From Deltaproteobacteria bacterium (GTDB lineage: Bacteria > Lernaellota > Lernaellaia > JACKCT01): DNA of 37,159 nt. The translations under genes were made by a program, and so were the position numbers. The stretch covers positions 1-37,159 of the forward strand of contig JADLEX010000105.1 in assembly GCA_020845895.1 (NCBI GenBank). The letters are read 5' to 3'. The notes beneath the pieces are model-generated. The model saw nothing but the letters and a program-made list of their open reading frames with translations, was not told the DNA's origin and ran no database searches. Below, one piece after another: positions 14,243 through 30,719 of this stretch. Position 1 is the first letter of the stretch. Every line of letters begins with the position of its first letter.

Positions 14243-15619
14243 TTAGCCGGCGCGTTGGAAGCGGAACTGGCTCCAGCGCTGGTTGGCCATGCGCAGGATC
14301 TCTTCGAGTTGATCGCCGGTCAGCGCGTCGGTACGCACCACGGCCGAGCGGAACCCGTCGTACTTCGAAAAGTCGCGCGTGCGCAGCTTGCCTTCGCTCG
14401 TGATCTCGTTCCAGTACTTGGACCCCGGGAATGGCGTCGCGACCGTGAACTGCACCGATTCGGGCGCGAAGGCGATGGCCATGTCGATGGTCTTCATCGC
14501 CGAGTCCCAGGTCTCGCCGGGCAGGCCGAACATGAAGGTCAGGTGCATCTTGATGCCGAGCTCGTGCGTGAACGCGACCGCGCGTTTGACCTTTTCGAGG
14601 TCGAGGCCCTTGTCGCAGGCGTCCACGATCTCCTGCGTGGCCGATTCGACCCCGTACTTGAGACCCCACAGCCCGGCTTCCTTCAGCTCGGTCAGGATCT
14701 CGCGGTCCATCAGGTCGGCGCGGGCCATGATGCCGAAGGGCAGATCCATGTTGCGCGATTTGACCTCGCGCGCGAACGCGAGCATGCGCTTCTTGCCGAT
14801 GTTGAACGTGTCGTCGTCGAAATACGCGCTCGCGAAGTTGTACTCGCGGGCGAGCCACTCCATCTCGTCCACCACGTCCTCGACGGAACGCACGCGGTAC
14901 TTGGGCGACGCGTACATGATCTGCGGCCATGCGCAGAACGTACACCCGTAAGGGCAACCCCGACTCGCCCACATCTGCACCGACGGGCGCGGAATGTTTC
15001 CCGGCTCGTCACGATAGGCATACATCGGCAGATAGTGGCGCGCCGGCCACGGAAAGACCGAGAGATCGGGCTCCAGCGGTCGGCGTCCGCCGTCGAAGAC
15101 GTCGCCGTCGGCGTCGCGCCAGAGCAGTCCCACGGTGCCCACGGGCGACACGCCCGCTTCGAGTCGCTGCGCGAATTCGAGCAGCGCCATCTCGTATTCG
15201 CCGACGAGCACCGCGTTGACCTCGGTGTGCTCTCGAAGCCATGGCGTCTTGAACATCTCGTCGTGCAGCCCGGCCAGAATGATGAGCTTGTCCGGGTTCT
15301 CCTCGCGAATGCGCGCGACATGGTACATGTCCTTGTCGTACGAGTTCGTCGAGATCTCGAGCACGATCACGTCGGGTTGGAAGTCGCGGATGCGCGTGAG
15401 GAACGCCTCATCCGTGATGCCCTCGGCGATGCCGTCCACGAGCAGCACGGGAAAGCCGTCCCGCTCCAGCACCGCCGTGGCGTATGCCAAAAAGAACGGG
15501 AACGGCATGTACTCCATGGACTGTTCCTCGAAATGCGGCCAGCGACTGCCGGCGCGCACGCCGTAGAACCCGTCCTTTTTCCAGGGGGCGTTGCCGAAGA
15601 AGACGCGCGTACGCTTCAT
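14243..15619 (-). CDS. radical SAM protein with B12-binding-type N-domain (second of pair)
   Basis: A 458-residue protein with a Rossmann-like N-terminal domain (about 1-170) of the cobalamin-binding type, followed by a radical SAM barrel. The cluster motif CxxxCxxC is in SRGCPYGCTFCAW. Later barrel elements are visible: FDDDTFNIGKKRM, the GLKYGVESATQEI strand and FMFGLPGETWDSAMKT. No His-on DxHxxG motif is seen (LLVDGIAEGI stands there), as in many class members that bind cobalamin base-off or not at all. The radical reaction and substrate cannot be told; known relatives do methylations and rearrangements in lipid, cofactor and natural product synthesis. It begins 16 bases after the end of the preceding radical SAM gene, so the two are almost surely one operon. 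Confidence 0.9.
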   Translation of the reverse strand: MKRTRVFFGNAPWKKDGFYGVRAGSRWPHFEEQSMEYMPFPFFLAYATAVLERDGFPVLLVDGIAEGITDEAFLTRIRDFQPDVIVLEISTNSYDKDMYHVARIREENPDKLIILAGLHDEMFKTPWLREHTEVNAVLVGEYEMALLEFAQRLEAGVSPVGTVGLLWRDADGDVFDGGRRPLEPDLSVFPWPARHYLPMYAYRDEPGNIPRPSVQMWASRGCPYGCTFCAWPQIMYASPKYRVRSVEDVVDEMEWLAREYNFASAYFDDDTFNIGKKRMLAFAREVKSRNMDLPFGIMARADLMDREILTELKEAGLWGLKYGVESATQEIVDACDKGLDLEKVKRAVAFTHELGIKMHLTFMFGLPGETWDSAMKTIDMAIAFAPESVQFTVATPFPGSKYWNEITSEGKLRTRDFSKYDGFRSAVVRTDALTGDQLEEILRMANQRWSQFRFQRAG

Positions 15620-15635
15620 GTCCGCGCCCGCGCGG

Positions 15636-17114
15636 TCACGCCGAAACGGCGGCGCGTCGGCCGCGGATCTGCGTGATGATCGACCGCTGTTCCCAGAGCA
15701 TGGCGAAGGCGGTGTAGGCCGAGCGCGCCAGCTCTTCCCAGCTCTTGATGCGCAGCAGCGCGCGCAGCACGTAGCGCGGTCGGAAGTAAAACTTCATGTA
15801 CGCCTTGCGTGCCCAGTTCTGGACCTCTTCCTCGGTCATGTCGCAGCCGGGCCGCGGGATGAACAGCTCGTCGACCGGGTTGGCGATGAAATCGCGCCAG
15901 TAATCGTGCCCGCCGTTTTCCTTCATCAGCATCTGATACATCTCGGTGGCGGGCATGGGCGTGACCTTCGAGAACTGCGCGTAGTCGAGGTCGAGTTCCT
16001 TCGCCAGCGTGATCGTCTGCTTCACGGTGTCCACGGTCTCGCCCGGGCTGCCGACCATGAAGTAGCCGAAGGTGTCGATGCCGATCTTGTTGGTGGCGTG
16101 GACGATCTCCTTGATGCGCTTCACGGTCGTCTTTTTCTTGAGCGTCTTGAGGATCGCCTCGTTGCCCGACTCGATGCCGAAGTAGATGCGCTTGCAGCCC
16201 GCTTCCTTGAGGTACTTGAGCATCTCCTCGTTGATGAGGTCCACACGGCTGCGCAGCGCCCACGCGAATTTCTGCTTGCGGTTGATGATCTCCTCGCAAA
16301 TGCGGATCACGCGGCGCTTGTCGGTGGTGAAGCTCGAGTCGAAGAAGTCGAATTCGCGGATCGAGTAAGCGTCCAGGCACTCCTGGATCTCGTCGCACAG
16401 GTTTTCGGGCGAGCGCGGCCGGAATTTCAACCCGCCCTGCTCGCAGAAGATGCAGTGGAACGGGCAGCCGCGGCTCGTGATGAGCGGCGTGAAGTTCCGG
16501 AACTGGCTGATGAACGAGTAGTAGAGATGGTTGGGCAGGTGGTGGCGCGCCGGAAACGGGGCGCTATCCACATCGGCGTAAAGCGGCGCGTAGGGATTCA
16601 CCACCGCCTCGCCGTCGTCCGTGCGCCAGATCAGGCCCTTCACCGCGGACAGGTCGCCGCCCGCGTTGTACGCCGTCAGAAATTCCGGCAGCGTTTCCTC
16701 GGCCTCGCCCGTGATGCCGAAATCGAGGCACCCGTGGACCATCGTCTCCTTGGGGTAAATCCCCATGTGGACGCCGCCCACCATCGACGGAACGCCCGTG
16801 GCCTCACGGATGTCGCGGAACCAGTCGAGGTTTTGGTGGAAGAGATTGGTCGTCGTCGTGTAAGCGACGAGGTCGGGGCGGAACGAATTCAGGCGCTTGA
16901 TCGTCTGCGGCTTGGACAGGCCCAGCGCGTGCGCGTCGATGAACTGGATCTTCGCGCCGGCCTTCTCGGCCACCGCCGCCACATACGCCAGCGACAGGCT
17001 CGGGAAAACTCCGTAGTTGTCCTTGACGACCTTGATTCCGGGTTCGTTTTTGATGGACCCGTAGGGCGTGTAGACGAAGCTGATTCGTTCGATCGGTCGG
17101 TTACCGCGGGCCAT
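15636..17114 (-). CDS. radical SAM protein with B12-binding-type N-domain (first of pair)
   Basis: A 492-residue protein of the same architecture as its downstream neighbour but clearly divergent in sequence, so not a recent duplicate. The cobalamin-type domain spans about 1-170 and includes IDAHALGLS, which fits DxHxxG by letter although it lies at a position where relatives usually have no ligand; GGVHMGIYP follows. The radical SAM motif is SRGCPFHCIFCEQ. FFDSSFTTDKRRV, IYFGIESGNEAIL and GYFMVGSPGETVDTV mark later barrel strands, and about 80 helical residues close the protein. An AAAGGA precedes the ATG at 17114. It is the first gene of the pair; the 144-base gap upstream carries no clear promoter. 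Substrate unknown. Confidence 0.9.
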   Translation of the reverse strand: MARGNRPIERISFVYTPYGSIKNEPGIKVVKDNYGVFPSLSLAYVAAVAEKAGAKIQFIDAHALGLSKPQTIKRLNSFRPDLVAYTTTTNLFHQNLDWFRDIREATGVPSMVGGVHMGIYPKETMVHGCLDFGITGEAEETLPEFLTAYNAGGDLSAVKGLIWRTDDGEAVVNPYAPLYADVDSAPFPARHHLPNHLYYSFISQFRNFTPLITSRGCPFHCIFCEQGGLKFRPRSPENLCDEIQECLDAYSIREFDFFDSSFTTDKRRVIRICEEIINRKQKFAWALRSRVDLINEEMLKYLKEAGCKRIYFGIESGNEAILKTLKKKTTVKRIKEIVHATNKIGIDTFGYFMVGSPGETVDTVKQTITLAKELDLDYAQFSKVTPMPATEMYQMLMKENGGHDYWRDFIANPVDELFIPRPGCDMTEEEVQNWARKAYMKFYFRPRYVLRALLRIKSWEELARSAYTAFAMLWEQRSIITQIRGRRAAVSA

Positions 17115-17258: not shown

Positions 17259-17891
17259 TCATTCCAAAAGCTGCTCGATGACGCCCTGGTACACCGCCTT
17301 GTCGTAACCGTGGCGACTGGACCGGGGCACCATCGCGCGGTCGAGGAAGAGCGTGAAGGGCAGCGAGCCCTCGGTGAAGTACGGCATCAGCGTCCACGCC
17401 GGATCGGCGCAGATCGTGTACGTGAGCCCGTATTCGTCGCGCCACCCTTGCAGGAATTCCTGGCTCGGCGGGTTGTTTTCGTTGTCCTCGACGAGCAGCT
17501 CGATGATCTCGAATCCCTCGTCGCGATACTCCTGATACAAATCCGATTCCAACAGCGGCGCTTCCTCGCGGCATGGCACGCACCACCCCGCGCCGGCGTT
17601 CAGCATGACCACGCTGCCCATGAAGTCGTAGAGCTCGACCGTGTCGCCCTCGTCGTTCACCCACGACCAGTTGGGAACCGGCGTGCCACCGTCGTCGTCG
17701 TCGCCCGTGTCGTCGTCGTCATCGTCGTCCAGCGCCTGGATCGGCGGCAGGTCGTCGTCGCCCGCCGCGGCATCTCCCGAGCCGTCGTCGTATTCCTCGC
17801 CGTCCCACTGCTTCTCGTAGTGGCCGCAGGCGACCGCCATCGCGGCAAGAGCCCCGATGACGAACCACAAATGAAGGCGACAAGTGCGCAT
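17259..17891 (-). CDS. thioredoxin-fold (TlpA/ResA-like) lipoprotein with Asp-rich spacer
   Basis: A 210-residue exported protein. The signal peptide ends in MAVAC (C22), a lipobox, so it should be membrane-anchored. Residues about 38-70 are an acidic spacer with runs of Asp. The rest is a TlpA-like domain: VVMLNAGAGWCVPCREEAP carries the C104-x2-C107 redox pair (Cys-Val-Pro-Cys), and SLPFTLFLD provides the cis-Pro loop. It probably handles disulphide exchange in the periplasm, perhaps in cytochrome or envelope protein maturation; no partner is adjacent. The ATG at 17891 is preferred to a TTG seven codons earlier because GGAG stands nine bases before it and the signal peptide is then of normal length. 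The spacer links it with the PHP lipoprotein and the carboxypeptidase. Confidence 0.88.
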   Translation of the reverse strand: MRTCRLHLWFVIGALAAMAVACGHYEKQWDGEEYDDGSGDAAAGDDDLPPIQALDDDDDDDTGDDDDGGTPVPNWSWVNDEGDTVELYDFMGSVVMLNAGAGWCVPCREEAPLLESDLYQEYRDEGFEIIELLVEDNENNPPSQEFLQGWRDEYGLTYTICADPAWTLMPYFTEGSLPFTLFLDRAMVPRSSRHGYDKAVYQGVIEQLLE

Positions 17892-17910
17892 CCAACACCA
17901 CTCCAAACCC

Positions 17911-17932
17911 AAAAAGCACGGTACTTCCGTGC
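17911..17932 (-). terminator. intrinsic terminator after the MDR oxidoreductase gene
   Basis: On the minus strand GCACGG and CCGTGC (plus 17916-17921 and 17927-17932) form a six-base stem with a five-base loop, followed by five T. It sits about 60 bases past the MDR stop codon and just before the thioredoxin-fold gene, which would therefore need its own promoter. Confidence 0.65.
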
Positions 17933-17990: not shown

Positions 17991-18986
17991 TCAACCCATC
18001 GTCACGACAACGTTGCCGCGTTTGCGTCCCGTATCGACATACGCGTGCGCCTCGGTGATGCGTTCGAGCGGGTATGTTCGGTCGATCGGCGGCGCGTAAC
18101 GCCCCGCCTCGGCCAGCGAGACGAGCAGGGCCAGATCCGCCGGGCGCTCGGGTGCGCCGCCCGCCAACACGCGGTGCGTCGTCCCGATCGTGCGCACGAG
18201 CGAACCGAGAATTTGCGGCACGCTGCCGGCGCACAGGATGAGCCGACCGCCGTTCGCGAGACCGGCCCGGCACTCGGCGTACGCATGGACGCCGACCGCT
18301 TCGAAGATGACGTCGTAGGCGTCGCCGGCGCCGAACAGCGGCTCCCGCGCGTAATCGACGACGCGGTCCGCGCCGAGACCGCGCACGAGTTCGACGTTGG
18401 CGGTGCTCGTCACGCCCGTGACCGACGCGCCGAAGTGCTTCGCGAGCTGCACCGCGGCGGCGCCGACCGCGCCGGACGCGCCGATCACGAGCACGCGTTC
18501 GCCCGATTGCAGCTTCGCGGCGTCGCGCAGGAAGTGGAGCGCGGCCGTTCCGCCGAACGCGAGCGCCGCGCCCTGCTCGAACGAGATCGAGTCCGGCAAG
18601 CGCGCGATGTTGCCCTTCACGGGCATGGTCCGGTATTCGGCGTGGCAGCCGAGCGCGACGCCCGGATACGCCGCGACGCGCTCGCCCAAGGCGTAATCGG
18701 TGACGCCGTCGCCCAAGGCCACGACCTCGCCCGCGAGTTCGGTGCCGAGCACCGGCTTGCGCGGCCCGAAGAAACCCAGAGCCGCCCGCGACAGCAGGCC
18801 GAATCCCGTCGGCACACGCAGGCTGCGCACGCGCGCGTCGCCCGACGACACCGTGCTCGCGTGCACGCGCAACAGCACCTCGCCGGGCCCGGGGCGCGGG
18901 CGCGGCACAATTTCGACGCTGACCACCTCGGGTCCGCCGTAGCGCCGATACACAGCGGCGCGCATGGTTTCGGACGACGGCGTCAT
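17991..18986 (-). CDS. MDR-superfamily NAD(P)-dependent quinone/alcohol oxidoreductase
   Basis: A 331-residue zinc-independent medium-chain dehydrogenase/reductase. The N-terminal GroES-like domain has RPRPGPGEVLLRVHASTVSSGD and GTELAGEVVALGDGV; the nucleotide-binding domain has VLVIGASGAVGAAAVQLAKHFGA, close to the AxGxxG NADPH motif, with VTSTAN after the second strand. Structural zinc cysteines are absent, which fits quinone oxidoreductase or enone reductase relatives. Substrate not predictable. The ATG at 18986 is preferred over longer options because GGAGG lies just upstream and the protein then begins where relatives do. It starts 32 bases after the USP-PLD gene and is the last gene before a terminator, so it is probably the distal gene of a four-gene operon. 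Confidence 0.9.
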   Translation of the reverse strand: MTPSSETMRAAVYRRYGGPEVVSVEIVPRPRPGPGEVLLRVHASTVSSGDARVRSLRVPTGFGLLSRAALGFFGPRKPVLGTELAGEVVALGDGVTDYALGERVAAYPGVALGCHAEYRTMPVKGNIARLPDSISFEQGAALAFGGTAALHFLRDAAKLQSGERVLVIGASGAVGAAAVQLAKHFGASVTGVTSTANVELVRGLGADRVVDYAREPLFGAGDAYDVIFEAVGVHAYAECRAGLANGGRLILCAGSVPQILGSLVRTIGTTHRVLAGGAPERPADLALLVSLAEAGRYAPPIDRTYPLERITEAHAYVDTGRKRGNVVVTMG

Positions 18987-19018: not shown

Positions 19019-21844
19019 TTACCCCAGCAGGCTCGGCCAGTTCTTCGACAGCCACGCGCGCTCCTCGGCCCGCTCGCGCCACCTGGGGTCGTCGCGGTCG
19101 ATGGGGATCGACGCGGCGAGGATCGACTCGAAGCGCGCCTCGACATCCGTCGCGAACGCGGCATCCTCGACGACGAGCAGCGCCTCGCTCTCCCAGTAGC
19201 CCGCGGTGATGTCCAGATTCGCGCTGCCGATCGCGCACCACCGGCCGTCGGCGCAGATCATTTTTGCATGGACGTGCGCGCGCACGGCGCCCAGATCGCA
19301 TCCCCACGCCGGCCCGGGCGGGGCGACGTATTCGTACGCCTCGGCGCCGGCCTCGACCAGCTCGTCGATGCGACCGTGCACGACCTGCGTGGCGAGCTCG
19401 CGGATCGCTCCGCCGGGAAAGTACACACCCTCGGCATCCCGATCACTCCACATCGGCCGCACGTGGCCGACCAACACCCGCACACGCACGCCACGACCCA
19501 CGGCGTTTCGGAGCGCGCGCAGGATTTCGAACTGCATGGGGAAGGTGTTGACGACGAGCAGGTCGCGCGTCGCGGCATCGATGAGCGCGAGATACGCCTC
19601 GAGCGTGTACGCGTCGCGCAGGCCGCGATGCACGACGAACCGCGCGGCGACGGACCCCACCGGCGGCGGCGCGACGACGTCGAACGGCTCGCGCCCCGCG
19701 GCGACCCACGCGCCGAGAAATGACGTCTCGACCTGCTCCACGATCGGGCCTTCGACGCACGCACCCGCGTCGAACCAAGGAATCTGTGCGCCGGGCGTCT
19801 CGTGCGTCAGTGCGATTTCGTCAAAGCCCCGATAGTAGGTGTCGGCGAGGTTGCGCCCGGTCACAATCGCCCGGCAACCGTCCACGATCACCAACTTGCG
19901 GTGGTCGCGACGTTTGAGATCGTTAATCGACGGCATGCCCTCGATCGGCCGATTCGCCGCGACCTCGATGCCCGCAACCGGCGCCAGCCGCTCCATGAAC
20001 GGGTTCTTGATCCCCATCGTCTCGTGAAGGCTGTAGAGCGCGTCGACCAGAAAACGCACCTTCACGCCGCGTTGCGCCGCGCGCACTAACGCCGCGGCGA
20101 TCTCGCGCGAGGATTCCTCGTCGTGCACGATATACGTCTGGATGTGCAAACGCTCGTGCGCTTCGTCGATCAGCGCGACGAGCGTGCGTCGCGCCTCCGC
20201 GTTGTCGAGCACGATGCCCACGCGGTTTCCGCCGATGCGCCGAGAGGCCGTGGTCGCGTCGAGCCGTTGACCGATCGACGCGTCTTCGGGGTTGACCGCC
20301 GTGCGCGCCTCGAAGATCCGCGCCGACAGTGCCTCCGGCTCCAGCGCGTCGAGGTCGGCGCTCGTGAACGTCGCAAACCCCCTCGCGTCCACGCCCTGCG
20401 CGGACCCGTGCGCGATGGCGACCACATCGACGCCGCGCGAACGTAGACGCGCGGCCGCGCGCGCGAGCAGCACGGCCTCGAAGCCCCCCGGCACATCGGA
20501 AAGGCGCCCCGATCCCAAAATCTGCCCCGCCTCGAAAACGCGCGGCGACGCGAAACCCGCGGCGAGGAAACGCTCCTTGGCCTCGTCGAGCCGCGTGTTG
20601 AGCGCGAGTTTCACGCCGAAGATGTCGATGCCGCTCTCGTTTTCGTGCAACGTGTGCAGCCGCGCGAGCGACTCCGCGCGAAACTCGGCATCGACGAGCA
20701 GCACCGGCCGCGCGGGGCGCACGATCGCCGCCTTCGTCTCTAGAGATGCCACCGGATCGCGCCACCGCCCGTCCGACACGCGACCGAGTCCCAGGAAATC
20801 CGCCGAGCGCGCGATGGAGAATTCATCCTCGCGGATCGTCAGATAGCCGTTGTGGGCGTACGCGACGGCGCGCAATTCGCCGCGATCGATGATGGCGACG
20901 TGCGTCTGATTCAGCGGCTGCGGCATGCCGAGCACGTTGACACGCTCGACGTACAGGGTGAGTGGCGATTCGCCGACGAAGACGTCCGCGGCGCACAGCG
21001 TCTCGGGATCGAGATAGAGCGAAAGTCCATGTGTTTCGGTGGGGACCAGGGCCACGGGAATGCGCAGCTCGCGAAGCGCCCAGACGACGAACACACCGCC
21101 GAGCCAATGCGTGACCCCCCATTCCGCATCGAGCAGCACGCACAGCATCTGGGATCGCCACTCGGCGATGCGCGACGGGATCGCCGCGCGTAGCTCGAGC
21201 AGCTTCGCGTCGCTTTGCGCGAAGCGAACCGTGCACGAGAGTCCGGCCACGCGGGCGTTCGCGTCGATGTCCTCCGGCGCGAGGGCCTTGACGGGACGCA
21301 GCGCGAAGAATCCGAGTTCGTGGTCCGGCCCCGTGCGTTCGCGCGCAAATCCCGCAAAGGCCGCGGCGCTCTGCGGCTTGCCGTCGAAGGGAAAAAGCAG
21401 GCGGCGGATCGGCGCATCGTCGCCTTCGTCCCCGGCCGTCGCCACCACGACCGGGATGCGGACGGACTGCACCGTGAGCGCAACCATGTCCACGAGATCG
21501 GTCGGCAGTCGCGACGCGATGGGTCCGACGACGATGACGTCCGCGCCGCAGCCTTTCGCCGACGCGCGCAGGTCTTCGTCGCGCAGTTCCAGCGCGGGTT
21601 CCGACGTGACGTCCGCGCACCAGACCGTGAGTTCGGCGCGCAGCCGGGCGAGTTGCGCGTCCGCCCGATTGAGCACGTCGAGCAGATCGTCCCACGGGTC
21701 GTTCTGGAATTTCAGAAACGGTGAAACGGGCGAGAGTCCCACCAGATGAACGCGCTCAGGATGTGTCGCGAGTCGTCGCGCGGTTTCGATCGCCCGCCCC
21801 GCCCCTTCGGGGATTTCCGCGATGACGAGAACCCGGCGAAACAT
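19019..21844 (-). CDS. universal-stress-protein / phospholipase D fusion
   Basis: A 941-residue cytoplasmic protein with an order I do not recognise from known families. Residues about 1-145 and 148-300 look like two degenerate universal-stress-protein (UspA) domains: RRVLVIAEIPEGAGRAIETA then CGADVIVVGP and IPVVVATAG; and IRRLLFPFDGKPQSAAAFA then IPVALVPTET. About 300-520 is unassigned. About 535-925 is a phospholipase D-like region with both HKD motifs intact: HRKLVIVDG (H648) followed by TGRN, and HAKMICADG (H859) followed by GSANLD, as in cardiolipin-synthase-type enzymes. It should cleave or transfer a phosphodiester, perhaps a phospholipid, under control of the N-terminal domains. No signal or membrane segment is visible. 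ATG at 21844 (GGAG six bases before) is preferred to the GTG one codon earlier. It lies between the hydrolase and MDR genes in one likely operon. Confidence 0.85.
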   Translation of the reverse strand: MFRRVLVIAEIPEGAGRAIETARRLATHPERVHLVGLSPVSPFLKFQNDPWDDLLDVLNRADAQLARLRAELTVWCADVTSEPALELRDEDLRASAKGCGADVIVVGPIASRLPTDLVDMVALTVQSVRIPVVVATAGDEGDDAPIRRLLFPFDGKPQSAAAFAGFARERTGPDHELGFFALRPVKALAPEDIDANARVAGLSCTVRFAQSDAKLLELRAAIPSRIAEWRSQMLCVLLDAEWGVTHWLGGVFVVWALRELRIPVALVPTETHGLSLYLDPETLCAADVFVGESPLTLYVERVNVLGMPQPLNQTHVAIIDRGELRAVAYAHNGYLTIREDEFSIARSADFLGLGRVSDGRWRDPVASLETKAAIVRPARPVLLVDAEFRAESLARLHTLHENESGIDIFGVKLALNTRLDEAKERFLAAGFASPRVFEAGQILGSGRLSDVPGGFEAVLLARAAARLRSRGVDVVAIAHGSAQGVDARGFATFTSADLDALEPEALSARIFEARTAVNPEDASIGQRLDATTASRRIGGNRVGIVLDNAEARRTLVALIDEAHERLHIQTYIVHDEESSREIAAALVRAAQRGVKVRFLVDALYSLHETMGIKNPFMERLAPVAGIEVAANRPIEGMPSINDLKRRDHRKLVIVDGCRAIVTGRNLADTYYRGFDEIALTHETPGAQIPWFDAGACVEGPIVEQVETSFLGAWVAAGREPFDVVAPPPVGSVAARFVVHRGLRDAYTLEAYLALIDAATRDLLVVNTFPMQFEILRALRNAVGRGVRVRVLVGHVRPMWSDRDAEGVYFPGGAIRELATQVVHGRIDELVEAGAEAYEYVAPPGPAWGCDLGAVRAHVHAKMICADGRWCAIGSANLDITAGYWESEALLVVEDAAFATDVEARFESILAASIPIDRDDPRWRERAEERAWLSKNWPSLLG

Positions 21845-21873: not shown

Positions 21874-21919
21874 GGCGTCCTCGACCTTCAGGCCGCGGCG
21901 TCCTCGACGATCAGGCCGC
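21874..21919. repeat. 23-bp tandem duplication at a stop codon
   Basis: Two back-to-back copies (21874-21896 and 21897-21919) of GGCGTCCTCGAC..TCAGGCCGC differ at two adjacent bases. The right copy contains the last codons and stop of the leftward alpha/beta hydrolase gene; the left copy repeats that stop sequence in the gap. It looks like a recent local duplication that did not change the gene end. Confidence 0.85.
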
Positions 21920-22840
21920 TCCGACGCCCCGCTCTCCGCCGGGCGCATCCCACGTGGCGGAAAATACGCGACGCCGGAAGAAGTGTTCGAGGCGCAAATT
22001 GACGATCTCGGGGTATTCGAGCGTCGCGTAGTGCGTTCCGTTGGGAATCAGAAACAGTTCGCTGCCGGCGATATCCGCGTGCATCTCCTCGGACACCCGA
22101 GCCGGCGTCATCTTGTCCGCAGTTCCGGCCGTGATGAGGGTCGGCACGCGCACCGTGGTGAGAATCGGCCGCGACGAATGTTCGTCGAGTCGCTTGATCA
22201 TCAGGAAGTACGTCGGGAAGTCGAGATCCTTGAAGTCGGTCGCGACCTCGGCGAAGAAATTTTCGTTCGCGCTCACCAGACGCAGCGACTTGATGAGGTT
22301 CATCGACCACGGCTGCGTGAGCAGCCATCCGGGAAGGTCGGCGAGAAGCGGGCCGGCGCGGTAGAGCCCCTGCGCGAGCGCGCGGAAGAACACGTCGGCC
22401 TTGGGCAGGCCGAACGCGGTCTTGAGCACGTGCTCGAACGCGCCGTTGATGAGCACGAGGGCGATCACATTGCGCGGCAGATGATGGTAAATCTCTAGAC
22501 CGAGCTCGACGCCCATGCTCCAGCCGCCGGTGACGAACCGCTCGCGATCCCACCCCGCGCCGCGCACGACCTCCAGCGCATCCTCGACGTGATCGTCCAC
22601 GGCGAGGCGCGAGATGTCGCGCGGCTTCTCGGATCGGTAACACCCGCGCGGCTCCCACGTCACGATCGTCATTTTCTCGCAAAAGAACTCGAAGAGATAT
22701 TTCCAGCACGACAGCGGCGTGCCCATTCCGGGCGGCAACAGCCATTTGTGCGGTCCCGCGCCGCAACGATACGCCTGAATCCGCGTGCCGTCGGCGCTCG
22801 TGACGGTGAATTCCTCAATGGGGACATCGATCGAGATCAT
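21911..22840 (-). CDS. alpha/beta hydrolase
   Basis: A 309-residue soluble alpha/beta-hydrolase fold protein with the full catalytic triad: nucleophile S108 in GGWSMGVE, D242 in AGTADKMTP, and H270 in NGTHYATLEYP. The oxyanion loop region reads LLPPGMGTPLSCW, and WEPRGCYRS matches the D/E-x-R-G-x-G-x-S strand of haloperoxidase and esterase relatives. No signal peptide is present, so it is cytoplasmic. The substrate could be an ester, lipid or thioester; nothing in the sequence decides it. It lies 41 bases after the M3 oligopeptidase gene and 66 before the USP-PLD gene, all leftward, so an operon is likely. Confidence 0.92.
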   Translation of the reverse strand: MISIDVPIEEFTVTSADGTRIQAYRCGAGPHKWLLPPGMGTPLSCWKYLFEFFCEKMTIVTWEPRGCYRSEKPRDISRLAVDDHVEDALEVVRGAGWDRERFVTGGWSMGVELGLEIYHHLPRNVIALVLINGAFEHVLKTAFGLPKADVFFRALAQGLYRAGPLLADLPGWLLTQPWSMNLIKSLRLVSANENFFAEVATDFKDLDFPTYFLMIKRLDEHSSRPILTTVRVPTLITAGTADKMTPARVSEEMHADIAGSELFLIPNGTHYATLEYPEIVNLRLEHFFRRRVFSATWDAPGGERGVGAA

Positions 22841-27668: not shown

Positions 27669-30600
27669 ATGACCGATGGCCAACACGACCTGTTTCGGCG
27701 ACTCGTCGAGTCGTTCCCGCATGGCGTGGTGTTGCTCGAGGCGCGCGGCGATGACCCGGGTGACTTGAAGCTCATCCACGCAAACCGCGAGGCCCTCCAA
27801 CGCTCACCGTTCGATCTGGCTTCCGCCGTCGGAAAACCGTTGCTCTCGGCGGTGGGCGGCGAACCTAGCGACGCGTTGCGCGATCTCCTCGCGCGGCTGT
27901 GGACCGCGGGCGTGAACGGGGAGGCGATCGAAGTTCCGTTGTTTTCGTTCGATCCGGAGTCCGCGCTCCCGGGGTGGTACAAGCTGGACACCGTCCCTCT
28001 CGGAGACCGCCTTCTCGCCGTCGTCATCGCCGATATCCGGGAGGATCTGGAAGCCGCCGAGAAGCTGCGTCGCAGCGAAGAGCGCTACCGACGCTTCGTC
28101 GAGCACACCGAGGATCTCGTGATCGCGGTCGGGGGCGAAGGCGTCATCAGCTACGTCAACGACAGCGCCAACCGATTCCTGGGGGTCGACCCCGCCGAAT
28201 GCGTCGGCCGCCACATCTTCGACTTCGTGCATCCCGACGATCGCCCCCGATCCGGAGACGATTTTCGGGACCTCGTGGCCCGGGGCCAGCGGGGGCGGTC
28301 CTATGAGAACCGCGTCGTTCACGCCGACGGACGCGCGTTCGACATTCTCTGGACCCTCACCGTCGACTATCGCGCAGGCGGAGAGGTCGAGGCCGTTCAT
28401 GCGGTCGGCCGCGACATCACCGACCGCAAGGCGGTGGAAGAGGCGCTTCGATCGACCAACCGTTTTCTCGATTCGGTCGTCGAAAACATCCCGGACATGA
28501 TCTTCGTGAAGGACGCGGCCGAGCTTCGCTTCGTGCGCTTCAACAAGGCCGGCGAGGATCTGCTGGGGTTCGCGCGCACGGACCTGATGGGAAAAAACGA
28601 CTACGACTTCGTCCCGCGCGACGAGGCGGATTTTTTCACCGCCAAGGACCGCGAGGTGCTCGACAACGGCGTGCTGGTGGACATTGCCGAGGAGCCGATT
28701 CACACGAGGGCGCGCGGCACGCGCACGCTCCACACCAAAAAGATCCCCATCACCGACGATCAGGGTCATCCGACCTACCTGCTCGGCATTTCGGAGGACA
28801 TCACCGAGCGAAAGCAGGCCCGAGAGGAACTCGACCAGTTCTTCGCCCTCGCCATCGACATGCCATGCATCGCGGATTTCACCGGGTATTTCCGCCGTCT
28901 CAGCCCTTCATGGACCGCGAGTCTGGGTTGGACCGCCGACGAACTCATGTCGCGACCGTTCCTCGATCGCGTGCATCCCGACGATGTCGAGTCGACAAAG
29001 GAGGCCATGGCGGGACTCGCCCGCGGCGAGGTCGTGATCGGCTTCGACAATCGCTACCTCGCCAAAGACGGCTCGATCCGATGGTTGTCGTGGAATTCGG
29101 TCGGAGATCCGAAGCGCGAACTCATCTTCGCCACCGCGCGCGACATCACGAGACGACGGGAAGCCGAGGAGCTGATCCGCCAGGCCAAGGAGGCGGCGGA
29201 GACGGCGAATCGCACGAAGAGCGAATTTCTCGCCAACATGAGCCACGAGCTGCGAACGCCGCTCAACGCCATCATCGGTTTTTCACAGATTCTGGAGAAT
29301 CGCACCTTCGGCGATCTCACCGAGAAGCAGACGCGCTACCTCCAGGGCATCGAACAGTCCGGTTGGCACCTGCTCCAGCTCATCAATGACATCCTCGACC
29401 TGTCCAAGGTCGAAGCCGGCAAGATGAGTCTCGACCTCGAATCCACGGACGTCGCGCGGATCGTCGAATCGAGCCTGCTCATCGTCCGAGAGAAGGCACA
29501 GGTTCACGGAGTTCGTCTTGACCTGCGCGTCGATGAATCGATTCGCGACCTGCGCATGATGGTCGACGAACGCAAGATCAAGCAGATCATGTACAACCTG
29601 CTGTCGAACGCCGTGAAGTTCACGCCGGACGGCGGCACGGTCGCCGTCGAGGTGGATCGGAGTCGCGCGGACTTTCGCGTCCGGGTGAGCGATTCGGGAG
29701 TCGGAATCGAGGCGGCCGATCTGGAACGAGTCTGGGGGGCGTTCGAACAGATCGACGGTTCCCGCGCACGCGAACGCGAAGGCACCGGGCTCGGCCTCGC
29801 GCTGACGAAGAAGCTCGTCGAACTCCACGGCGGACGCATCGAGGTGACGAGCCCGGGGCGCGGTCGCGGCGCGACGTTCGAATTCGCCATCCCCATCGTC
29901 GAATCGGCCCTGCCCATGGTGACGTCGTCGCGAAACGACCGCCACGTCCGAGCGCACCGGCGTGATAAAACGCCCCTTGTGCTGATTGTCGAGGATGATC
30001 CCAACGCGCGCGAACTGCTCACGCAGTACATCACGACGGGCGGGTATCGCGTGGCCGTCGCGCGCGACGGCGAGGAAGCTCTGCGCCTGGCCCGCGAACT
30101 GAATCCCGATGCCGTGACGCTCGACATGATGCTGCCGCGGATCGACGGGATGGGCGTGCTCGCCAGCCTGAAAGCCGACCCCGCGACGTCGGACATTCCC
30201 ATCGTCGTGGTTTCGGTGACGGAAAAAAATCAGCTCGCGTTTACGCTGGGCGTCGCCGAGTGGTTCGTGAAACCGGTGGACGAGAAGAGACTGCTCGACA
30301 CGCTTCGCCGGCTCTGCGTCGCGAACGGACGCGAAACGCTGCGCGTGCTGGTGACGGACGACGATCCCGCCACGGTCGAATGCCTGACGGCGCTGTTCAC
30401 CGGCGAGGGATACGAAGTGGAAGGCGTGAACGGCGGCGCGCAGTGCCTCGATTCGGCGCGGCGCGCCCCCCCCGACGTCATCATTCTCGATCTGATGATG
30501 CCGGGCATGAGCGGCTTCGACGTGGTGGACCGACTTCAGGCCGATCCCCGCATGAAGGACGTGCCGGTCGTCGTTTACACGGCGATGACCCTTTCGGCGG

Positions 30601-30719
30601 ACGACCGGGCGCGACTGGGCCGTCGCGTCCAGGCCGTGACGCCGAAGCCGAGGCAAACCGATCTTCTGGAGGAGCTGGCGAAGGCGCGGAGCCTGAAGCG
30701 ACAAAATCCGGAAACCTGA
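27669..30719 (+). CDS. multi-PAS hybrid histidine kinase with two receivers
   Basis: A 1016-residue cytoplasmic kinase. PAS domains occupy about 10-120 (weak), 138-255, 265-385 and 390-495, with DITDRKAVEEAL and DITERKQAREEL PAC ends. HisKA has phospho-acceptor H526 (LANMSHELRTPLNAI). The ATPase domain has YNLLSNAVKF, VSDSGVGI and GTGLGLALTKKLVE. Two receivers follow: REC1 with D819 (VTLDMMLPRIDG) and K in WFVKPVD, REC2 with D941 (IILDLMMPGMSG) and K in VTPKPRQ. No membrane segment; it senses internal signals. Phosphoryl groups should pass to the two internal receivers and to the two receiver proteins encoded immediately downstream. The ATG at 27669 is preceded by GGAAAGG. Family role is clear, the input signal is not. 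Confidence 0.94.
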   Translation: MTDGQHDLFRRLVESFPHGVVLLEARGDDPGDLKLIHANREALQRSPFDLASAVGKPLLSAVGGEPSDALRDLLARLWTAGVNGEAIEVPLFSFDPESALPGWYKLDTVPLGDRLLAVVIADIREDLEAAEKLRRSEERYRRFVEHTEDLVIAVGGEGVISYVNDSANRFLGVDPAECVGRHIFDFVHPDDRPRSGDDFRDLVARGQRGRSYENRVVHADGRAFDILWTLTVDYRAGGEVEAVHAVGRDITDRKAVEEALRSTNRFLDSVVENIPDMIFVKDAAELRFVRFNKAGEDLLGFARTDLMGKNDYDFVPRDEADFFTAKDREVLDNGVLVDIAEEPIHTRARGTRTLHTKKIPITDDQGHPTYLLGISEDITERKQAREELDQFFALAIDMPCIADFTGYFRRLSPSWTASLGWTADELMSRPFLDRVHPDDVESTKEAMAGLARGEVVIGFDNRYLAKDGSIRWLSWNSVGDPKRELIFATARDITRRREAEELIRQAKEAAETANRTKSEFLANMSHELRTPLNAIIGFSQILENRTFGDLTEKQTRYLQGIEQSGWHLLQLINDILDLSKVEAGKMSLDLESTDVARIVESSLLIVREKAQVHGVRLDLRVDESIRDLRMMVDERKIKQIMYNLLSNAVKFTPDGGTVAVEVDRSRADFRVRVSDSGVGIEAADLERVWGAFEQIDGSRAREREGTGLGLALTKKLVELHGGRIEVTSPGRGRGATFEFAIPIVESALPMVTSSRNDRHVRAHRRDKTPLVLIVEDDPNARELLTQYITTGGYRVAVARDGEEALRLARELNPDAVTLDMMLPRIDGMGVLASLKADPATSDIPIVVVSVTEKNQLAFTLGVAEWFVKPVDEKRLLDTLRRLCVANGRETLRVLVTDDDPATVECLTALFTGEGYEVEGVNGGAQCLDSARRAPPDVIILDLMMPGMSGFDVVDRLQADPRMKDVPVVVYTAMTLSADDRARLGRRVQAVTPKPRQTDLLEELAKARSLKRQNPET

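Follow-up and report, generated by a model that had tools for sequence, protein, structure and literature searches.

Tandem universal stress proteins (USPs) such as UspE, PMI1202 and TTHA0350 contain two USP domains that form an intramolecular pair. UspE and its Proteus homolog PMI1202 hold a ligand resembling an acylated lipid A intermediate (PMC4750201), and T. thermophilus TTHA0350 binds ATP despite a degenerate motif in one of its domains (PMC3673472). The fusion partners named for USP domains are kinases, antiporters, permeases and channels; phospholipase D (PLD) is not among them (PMC6560075). Two-HKD PLD regions are found in the cardiolipin synthases ClsA and ClsB, and phosphatidic acid is a common phospholipase D product. 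The LNS2 domain of the animal Nir proteins, composed of an immunoglobulin domain and a lipin-like unit, binds the phosphatidic acid made by PLD and is without catalysis, the catalytic Asp of its DxDxT motif having been lost (PMC12419160).

The window analyzed here, a stretch of 37,159 nucleotides (contig JADLEX010000105.1, positions 1–37,159) from a Deltaproteobacteria bacterium, encodes a 941-residue protein that appears to join these domain kinds in the order USP–USP–LNS2-like–PLD. The architecture is new and is built of known kinds of domain. The first-pass annotation of this DNA had not recognized the domain order from described families, and none was found in papers or family libraries. 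We found no description of a USP–PLD or LNS2–PLD fusion in the literature, and no curated family covers residues 1–520. The protein brings to the PLD superfamily a phylogenetically stable architecture that has not been described, and it places a candidate bacterial relative of LNS2 on one chain with an enzyme of a type that produces phosphatidic acid.

Like the tandem USPs, the protein contains two USP domains as a predicted intramolecular pair; what sets it apart is the missing nucleotide motif and the attachment of the pair to LNS2-like and PLD domains. It shares a two-HKD PLD region with the cardiolipin synthases (ClsA/ClsB, TIGR04265 and NF008427), which give the best curated sequence similarity, but it has three extra N-terminal domains, belongs to a separate clade and scores far under the equivalog cut-offs. 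The predicted immunoglobulin-like β-sandwich and HAD-like unit of its middle region resemble the LNS2 (PILS) domains of Nir1 and Nir2 (PITPNM) and the lipin/Pah phosphatases, and the catalytic DxDxT motif is degraded as in Nir LNS2. Unlike LNS2 and lipin, however, this region has no Pfam-level match, is bacterial and apparently cytosolic, and is covalently joined to a PLD. Models of the PLD-like nucleases DrmC (of the DISARM system) and NucT match the HKD stretches, but the DrmC models are mostly short (about 90–380 positions) and lack a USP or LNS2-like part.

Domain organization of the 941-residue protein

The complete coding sequence lies on the minus strand (19019..21844), beginning with an ATG at 21844 and closing with a TAA whose last base is at 19019. 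A GGAG precedes the start codon, the N-terminal MFRR is kept in relatives, and the GC content of the three codon positions (73/48/84%) has the pattern of a coding frame. Full-length relatives are 33–41% identical, the best (about 40% identity, E 7e-169) aligning with residues 1–941, so the open reading frame is not a chance one. The gene is present in one copy in a 4.98 Mb genome. An AlphaFold model of the full protein has a pLDDT of 89.3 and a pTM of 0.87. The 941-residue protein contains no convincing transmembrane segment, its most hydrophobic stretch lying inside a predicted USP helix, and it is therefore probably soluble, in line with the first-pass annotation. The sequence by itself retrieved nothing useful from the PDB, and an Rfam scan of the window detected no RNA families.

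Profile comparisons and the predicted model indicate that two degenerate USP domains stand in tandem at the N-terminus, where two UspA-like domains had been proposed. Domain 1 spans residues 1–142 (21419..21844, minus strand) and domain 2 residues 145–272 (21029..21412, minus strand). Pfam Usp does not match the window protein by itself at E≤1, so the domains are easily missed and the window copy is a degenerate member; the same model matches 8 of the 33 family members, with a best E of 5e-5. At the family level the five-stranded USP α/β fold is detectable by profile: when a profile of residues 1–278 was compared with all PDB sequences, the top nine matches were universal stress proteins (best E 2.1e-8), and domain 2 has PDB profile matches to 4wny and 1wjg. 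Aligned by hhalign with a profile of 21 ordinary USPs, domain 1 gave P=3.4e-8 (40 permuted controls reached at best 2.6e-3) and domain 2 gave P=3.7e-7, beating all 40 permuted controls; the LNS2-like middle and PLD regions gave nothing in the same profile–profile comparison. Profile comparison also finds similarity between the two halves (prob 90), and the AlphaFold model contains two five-strand β–α units (residues 4–134 and 148–268) with the strand and helix order of USPs.

Neither domain retains the ATP-binding glycine motif. The UspFG-type nucleotide motif G-x2-G-x9-G[S/T/N] is absent from 31 of 33 family members, the text matches in the other two lying off the motif position, and is present in 11 of the 21 ordinary USPs of the comparison set. 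Conservation is lowest in the USP part, where identity to the window protein averages 18–23%, versus 47–51% in the PLD region, and where the family alignment has no invariant residue.

The middle region had been described as an unassigned segment of about 220 residues, and indeed no Pfam family matches residues 279–520 of the window copy at E≤10. Modeled separately, these residues (pLDDT 92, pTM 0.90) form a β-sandwich (residues 279–378; 20711..21010, minus strand) followed by a HAD-type α/β unit (residues 379–515; 20300..20710, minus strand). A Foldseek search of 350,542 PDB chains returned one match at E≤1e-3, the C-terminal (LNS2) domain of Nir2 with phosphatidic acid (9jtz; E 7.5e-5, probability 1.00, 238 columns), with a moderate TM-score of 0.45. 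The remaining fold matches are weak and are to ordinary Rossmann-type proteins. The HAD reading of the α/β unit rests on its strand order and on the 9jtz match, and the predicted structure as a whole has an immunoglobulin-like plus HAD-like fold similar to Nir2 and lipin. The first-pass annotation missed this resemblance to a phosphatidic-acid-binding domain.

At the sequence level, Pfam LNS2 matches none of the 33 family members, and a middle-region profile searched against PDB sequences did not find LNS2, so the link to LNS2 is made through the fold and an intermediate clade. Curated LNS2 proteins (PF24694) occur above the Pfam cut-off in 24 of 189 Myxococcota genomes, and 20 such Myxococcota proteins were used to build a comparison profile. 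The middle region of a USP-less sister clade matches this profile over 203 columns (score 44.2, P 3e-5); the direct match of the window family is weaker (score 26.6, P 0.006). Scores of 40 permuted controls reached at most 22.6 for the sister clade and 20.2 for the window family, and reversed versions scored lower. The middle regions of the window family and the sister clade match one another with P 1e-9. Because the fold match and the sister-clade profile tie the middle region to LNS2, we read the domain order as USP–USP–LNS2-like–PLD; the assignment of a degenerate LNS2-like domain is moderately supported by these sequence profiles and models.

Neither the catalytic DxDxT of lipins nor the partial DxDGS-type motif of Nir proteins is found in the alignment, where a single Asp (D385) is retained. 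Seven residues of the region (D385, R412, R423, D438, D450, R459 and R462) are nearly invariant, in several cases at or near strand ends. As expected from HAD proteins, in which strand ends bind phosphate, this set of Asp and Arg residues would fit a phosphate pocket without catalysis in the model. The window copy departs from the conserved pocket at four positions (R412K, R423K, D438E and R459L).

The C-terminal two-HKD PLD catalytic region (residues 535–941; 19022..20242, minus strand) is matched by both Pfam PLDc_2 (E 2.5e-33) and PLDc, as well as by Foldseek, and is the most conserved part of the protein among the 33 members. Both HKD motifs noted in the first-pass annotation are intact, and all 33 members keep them unchanged: H648-x-K-x4-D655...G663xN665 (19850..19903, minus strand) and H859-x-K-x4-D866...G873SxN876 (19217..19270, minus strand). 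Ranked by E-value, the closest folds in Foldseek are human PLD1 and PLD2, followed by Streptomyces PLD, PssA and PLD3/4. The closest curated sequence families are the cardiolipin synthases NF008427 (ClsB, E 1e-29) and TIGR04265 (E 3e-24), whose equivalog cut-offs are not reached (103.7 versus 281 bits and 85.9 versus 290 bits, respectively). DrmC likewise scores 77.9 versus a curated cut-off of 133 bits, and the matches to nuclease models of this kind, NucT included, fall below the cut-off wherever a curated one exists. In a fold search against viral structures, the only matches were PLD-like, among them PLD envelope proteins.

Distribution, history and gene neighborhoods

Sequence comparisons indicate that the USP–USP–LNS2-like–PLD order is conserved as one clade, mostly in myxobacteria. 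A pattern scan of 84,980 species, which was steered by two PLD motifs and is therefore not exhaustive, yielded 44 loci, the majority from myxobacteria (Myxococcus, Pyxidicoccus, Archangium, Anaeromyxobacter and Polyangia MAGs) and others from some MAGs labeled Acidobacteriota, Burkholderiales and Planctomycetota. Matches at about E 1e-45 or better occur in 35 of 195 Myxococcota genomes, one of them to the USP-less form. Viral contigs contained no relative of the 941-residue protein; plasmids gave generic PLD/Cls matches to its C-terminal half only, with none to the N-terminal 514 residues at E≤1.

A tree of the PLD core, made by a quick method with SH-aLRT rather than bootstrap support, places the USP-bearing proteins in one clade (98) and the USP-less proteins as its sister (96), with the change of architecture occurring once. 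Generic Cls-like proteins are split from the family with full support. The USP-less sister proteins (L053, L059, L094 and L096–L101) have the LNS2-like region and the same PLD subfamily in open frames of 715–829 residues. The window protein falls inside the USP clade without a close relative, its highest PLD-core identity being 55%. No full-length copy was found in other genomes of its own family or class, nor was synteny found with same-class genomes, and horizontal acquisition or multiple loss of the gene is likely. Misassembly of the contig is not indicated, and contamination was considered and is unlikely: the adjoining M3 peptidase (56% identity) and α/β hydrolase (45%) genes have close homologs in the class, and of three Myxococcota genomes checked for the peptidase, two lacked a match and the third had a weak one.

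The window gene is flanked upstream by an α/β hydrolase (21911..22840, minus strand; Abhydrolase_1 E 6e-13), which has own-class homologs, and downstream by a zinc-type alcohol dehydrogenase/quinone oxidoreductase (17991..18986, minus strand; ADH_zinc_N_2 E 4e-20) whose start codon was read from the sequence. The intervening distances are about 66 and 32 bp. Gaps and some small genes in the neighborhood comparison are rough, since its open reading frames were called by a simple composition-based heuristic. These flanking genes and the M3 peptidase are not clearly lipid genes. In Myxococcus and Pyxidicoccus, mlaE, an ABC ATPase and mlaD lie directly upstream with a gap down to 15 bp, an arrangement limited to this one genus group. 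A class-3 lipase adjoins the gene in five loci. A calcineurin-like phosphoesterase gene runs 4 bp into the start of the gene in several MAG lineages as well as in Anaeromyxobacter and Myxococcaceae (L042, L044, L052, L066, L075 and L077; the L066 copy consists of two overlapping frames). The lipid-related neighbors are associations and not proof of function.

No defense genes were recognized beside the family loci. The Pfam-scanned genes of the window include neither drmA nor drmB; the DISARM models were run on part of the neighbors only. A second calcineurin-like phosphoesterase family, apparently unrelated to the overlapping one, lies just downstream of the gene in Myxococcus and Pyxidicoccus (L043:7072–7917). 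Elsewhere in the window are a tandem pair of radical SAM genes with B12-binding domains (14243–17114, minus strand), a TlpA/thioredoxin-like lipoprotein (17259–17912) with long Asp-rich runs visible by eye past its signal peptide, and a hybrid histidine kinase (27669–30719) that carries two receiver domains along with several PAS domains.

Proposed function and alternative explanations

We tentatively favor the view, drawn from sequence and predicted structure, that the protein is a cytosolic, membrane-peripheral PLD-superfamily enzyme that acts on phospholipids and is regulated via lipid binding. We infer that the PLD region acts on phospholipid through the covalent phosphohistidine mechanism standard for two-HKD enzymes; the lipid may be hydrolyzed to phosphatidic acid or, in the manner of the cardiolipin synthases, undergo transphosphatidylation. 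The LNS2-like domain, with the phosphatase nucleophile/acid pair lost, would bind phosphatidic acid or another anionic lipid, and in doing so could dock the enzyme on the membrane and sense its own product or substrate pool. The USP pair, lacking the nucleotide motif, may form a UspE-type intramolecular dimer and, after UspE and PMI1202, either bind an acylated ligand or serve as a dimerizing or regulatory head. This proposal follows from the invariant HKD residues, the predominance of phospholipid PLDs among the closest folds, the LNS2-like middle region, and the position of relatives beside mlaE/mlaD, a class-3 lipase or the overlapping phosphoesterase. Counting against it, two-HKD PLDs include nucleases (PLD3/4, NucT and DrmC) with sequence or fold matches here; the window copy carries the four pocket substitutions; the mla link is confined to one genus group and the window neighbors are not clearly lipid-related; and the LNS2 assignment combines one moderate-TM fold match with a profile link through an intermediate.

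The last point bears on whether the middle region is instead a generic pairing of an immunoglobulin-like domain with a Rossmann/HAD unit unrelated to LNS2 lipid binding. The modest TM-score, the weak direct profile match and the Rossmann-type character of the other fold hits all fit that explanation, which we consider doubtful since the 9jtz match covers both subdomains in order and the sister clade has a clear, permutation-controlled match to the LNS2 profile. If the LNS2 relationship holds, control by lipid rather than by nucleotide is pointed to. The first-pass annotation was right about the USP tandem, the two-HKD PLD, the probable solubility and the unfamiliar domain order, but its proposal that a stress-linked nucleotide gates the enzyme gained no positive support. 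A stress-operated switch, with the PLD turned on or off by ATP or another adenine nucleotide bound to the USP pair, could draw on the presence of real USP domains, and on the retention of ATP by certain USPs with degenerate motifs (PMC3673472). The glycine motif is nevertheless missing from almost the whole family with no aligned match, no USP residue is invariant, and the low identity of the USP part argues against a strict ligand site; we regard such a switch as the least probable of the alternatives.

The identity of the substrate can be questioned in two further ways. A stress-induced variant of cardiolipin synthase, joining two PG molecules or, as in ClsC, PG and PE, with the extra domains serving only for localization, would account for the ClsB and bacterial cardiolipin synthase models being the best NCBIfam matches. 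To our knowledge ClsB-like enzymes have no obvious N-terminal membrane anchor, which would also suit this explanation. It appears rather unlikely given bit scores of 104 versus 281 and 86 versus 290 and the separate clustering of generic Cls-like proteins. Alternatively, the PLD region could be a nuclease of the NucT, DrmC or PLD3/4 type, engaged in defense or DNA turnover with the N-terminal domains as adaptors. The DrmC and NucT model matches, the fold similarity to PLD3/4 structures and a weak anti-phage model match to the adjoining phosphoesterase speak for it. The shortfall of every such match that has a curated cut-off, the ranking of lipid PLDs as top folds, the placement of a conserved Myxococcaceae gene beside mla or lipase genes rather than recognizable defense genes, and the LNS2-like domain all favor lipid and make a nuclease improbable.

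Should lipid binding be confirmed, the phospholipid-enzyme proposal offers a testable link between the USP module, whose functions have long been puzzling, and remodeling of membrane phospholipids in myxobacteria, where the gene is often beside the mla phospholipid-transport genes. More speculatively, and with a correspondingly small chance of being right, the protein could be a single-chain phosphatidic acid circuit in which a PLD that makes phosphatidic acid is joined to a lipin/Nir-like sensor of it and topped by a tandem USP head responsive to an acylated precursor of the envelope. Such a circuit would tie phospholipid turnover to envelope stress and constitute a prokaryotic counterpart of the eukaryotic pathway from PLD to Nir2-LNS2. 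As a separate observation, the putatively secreted LNS2_PITM1-3 proteins of Myxococcota (L142–L161), which score well above the Pfam cut-off, are possibly bacterial lipin-type phosphatases; most have an intact DxDGT motif together with what looks like a signal peptide or a lipoprotein start.
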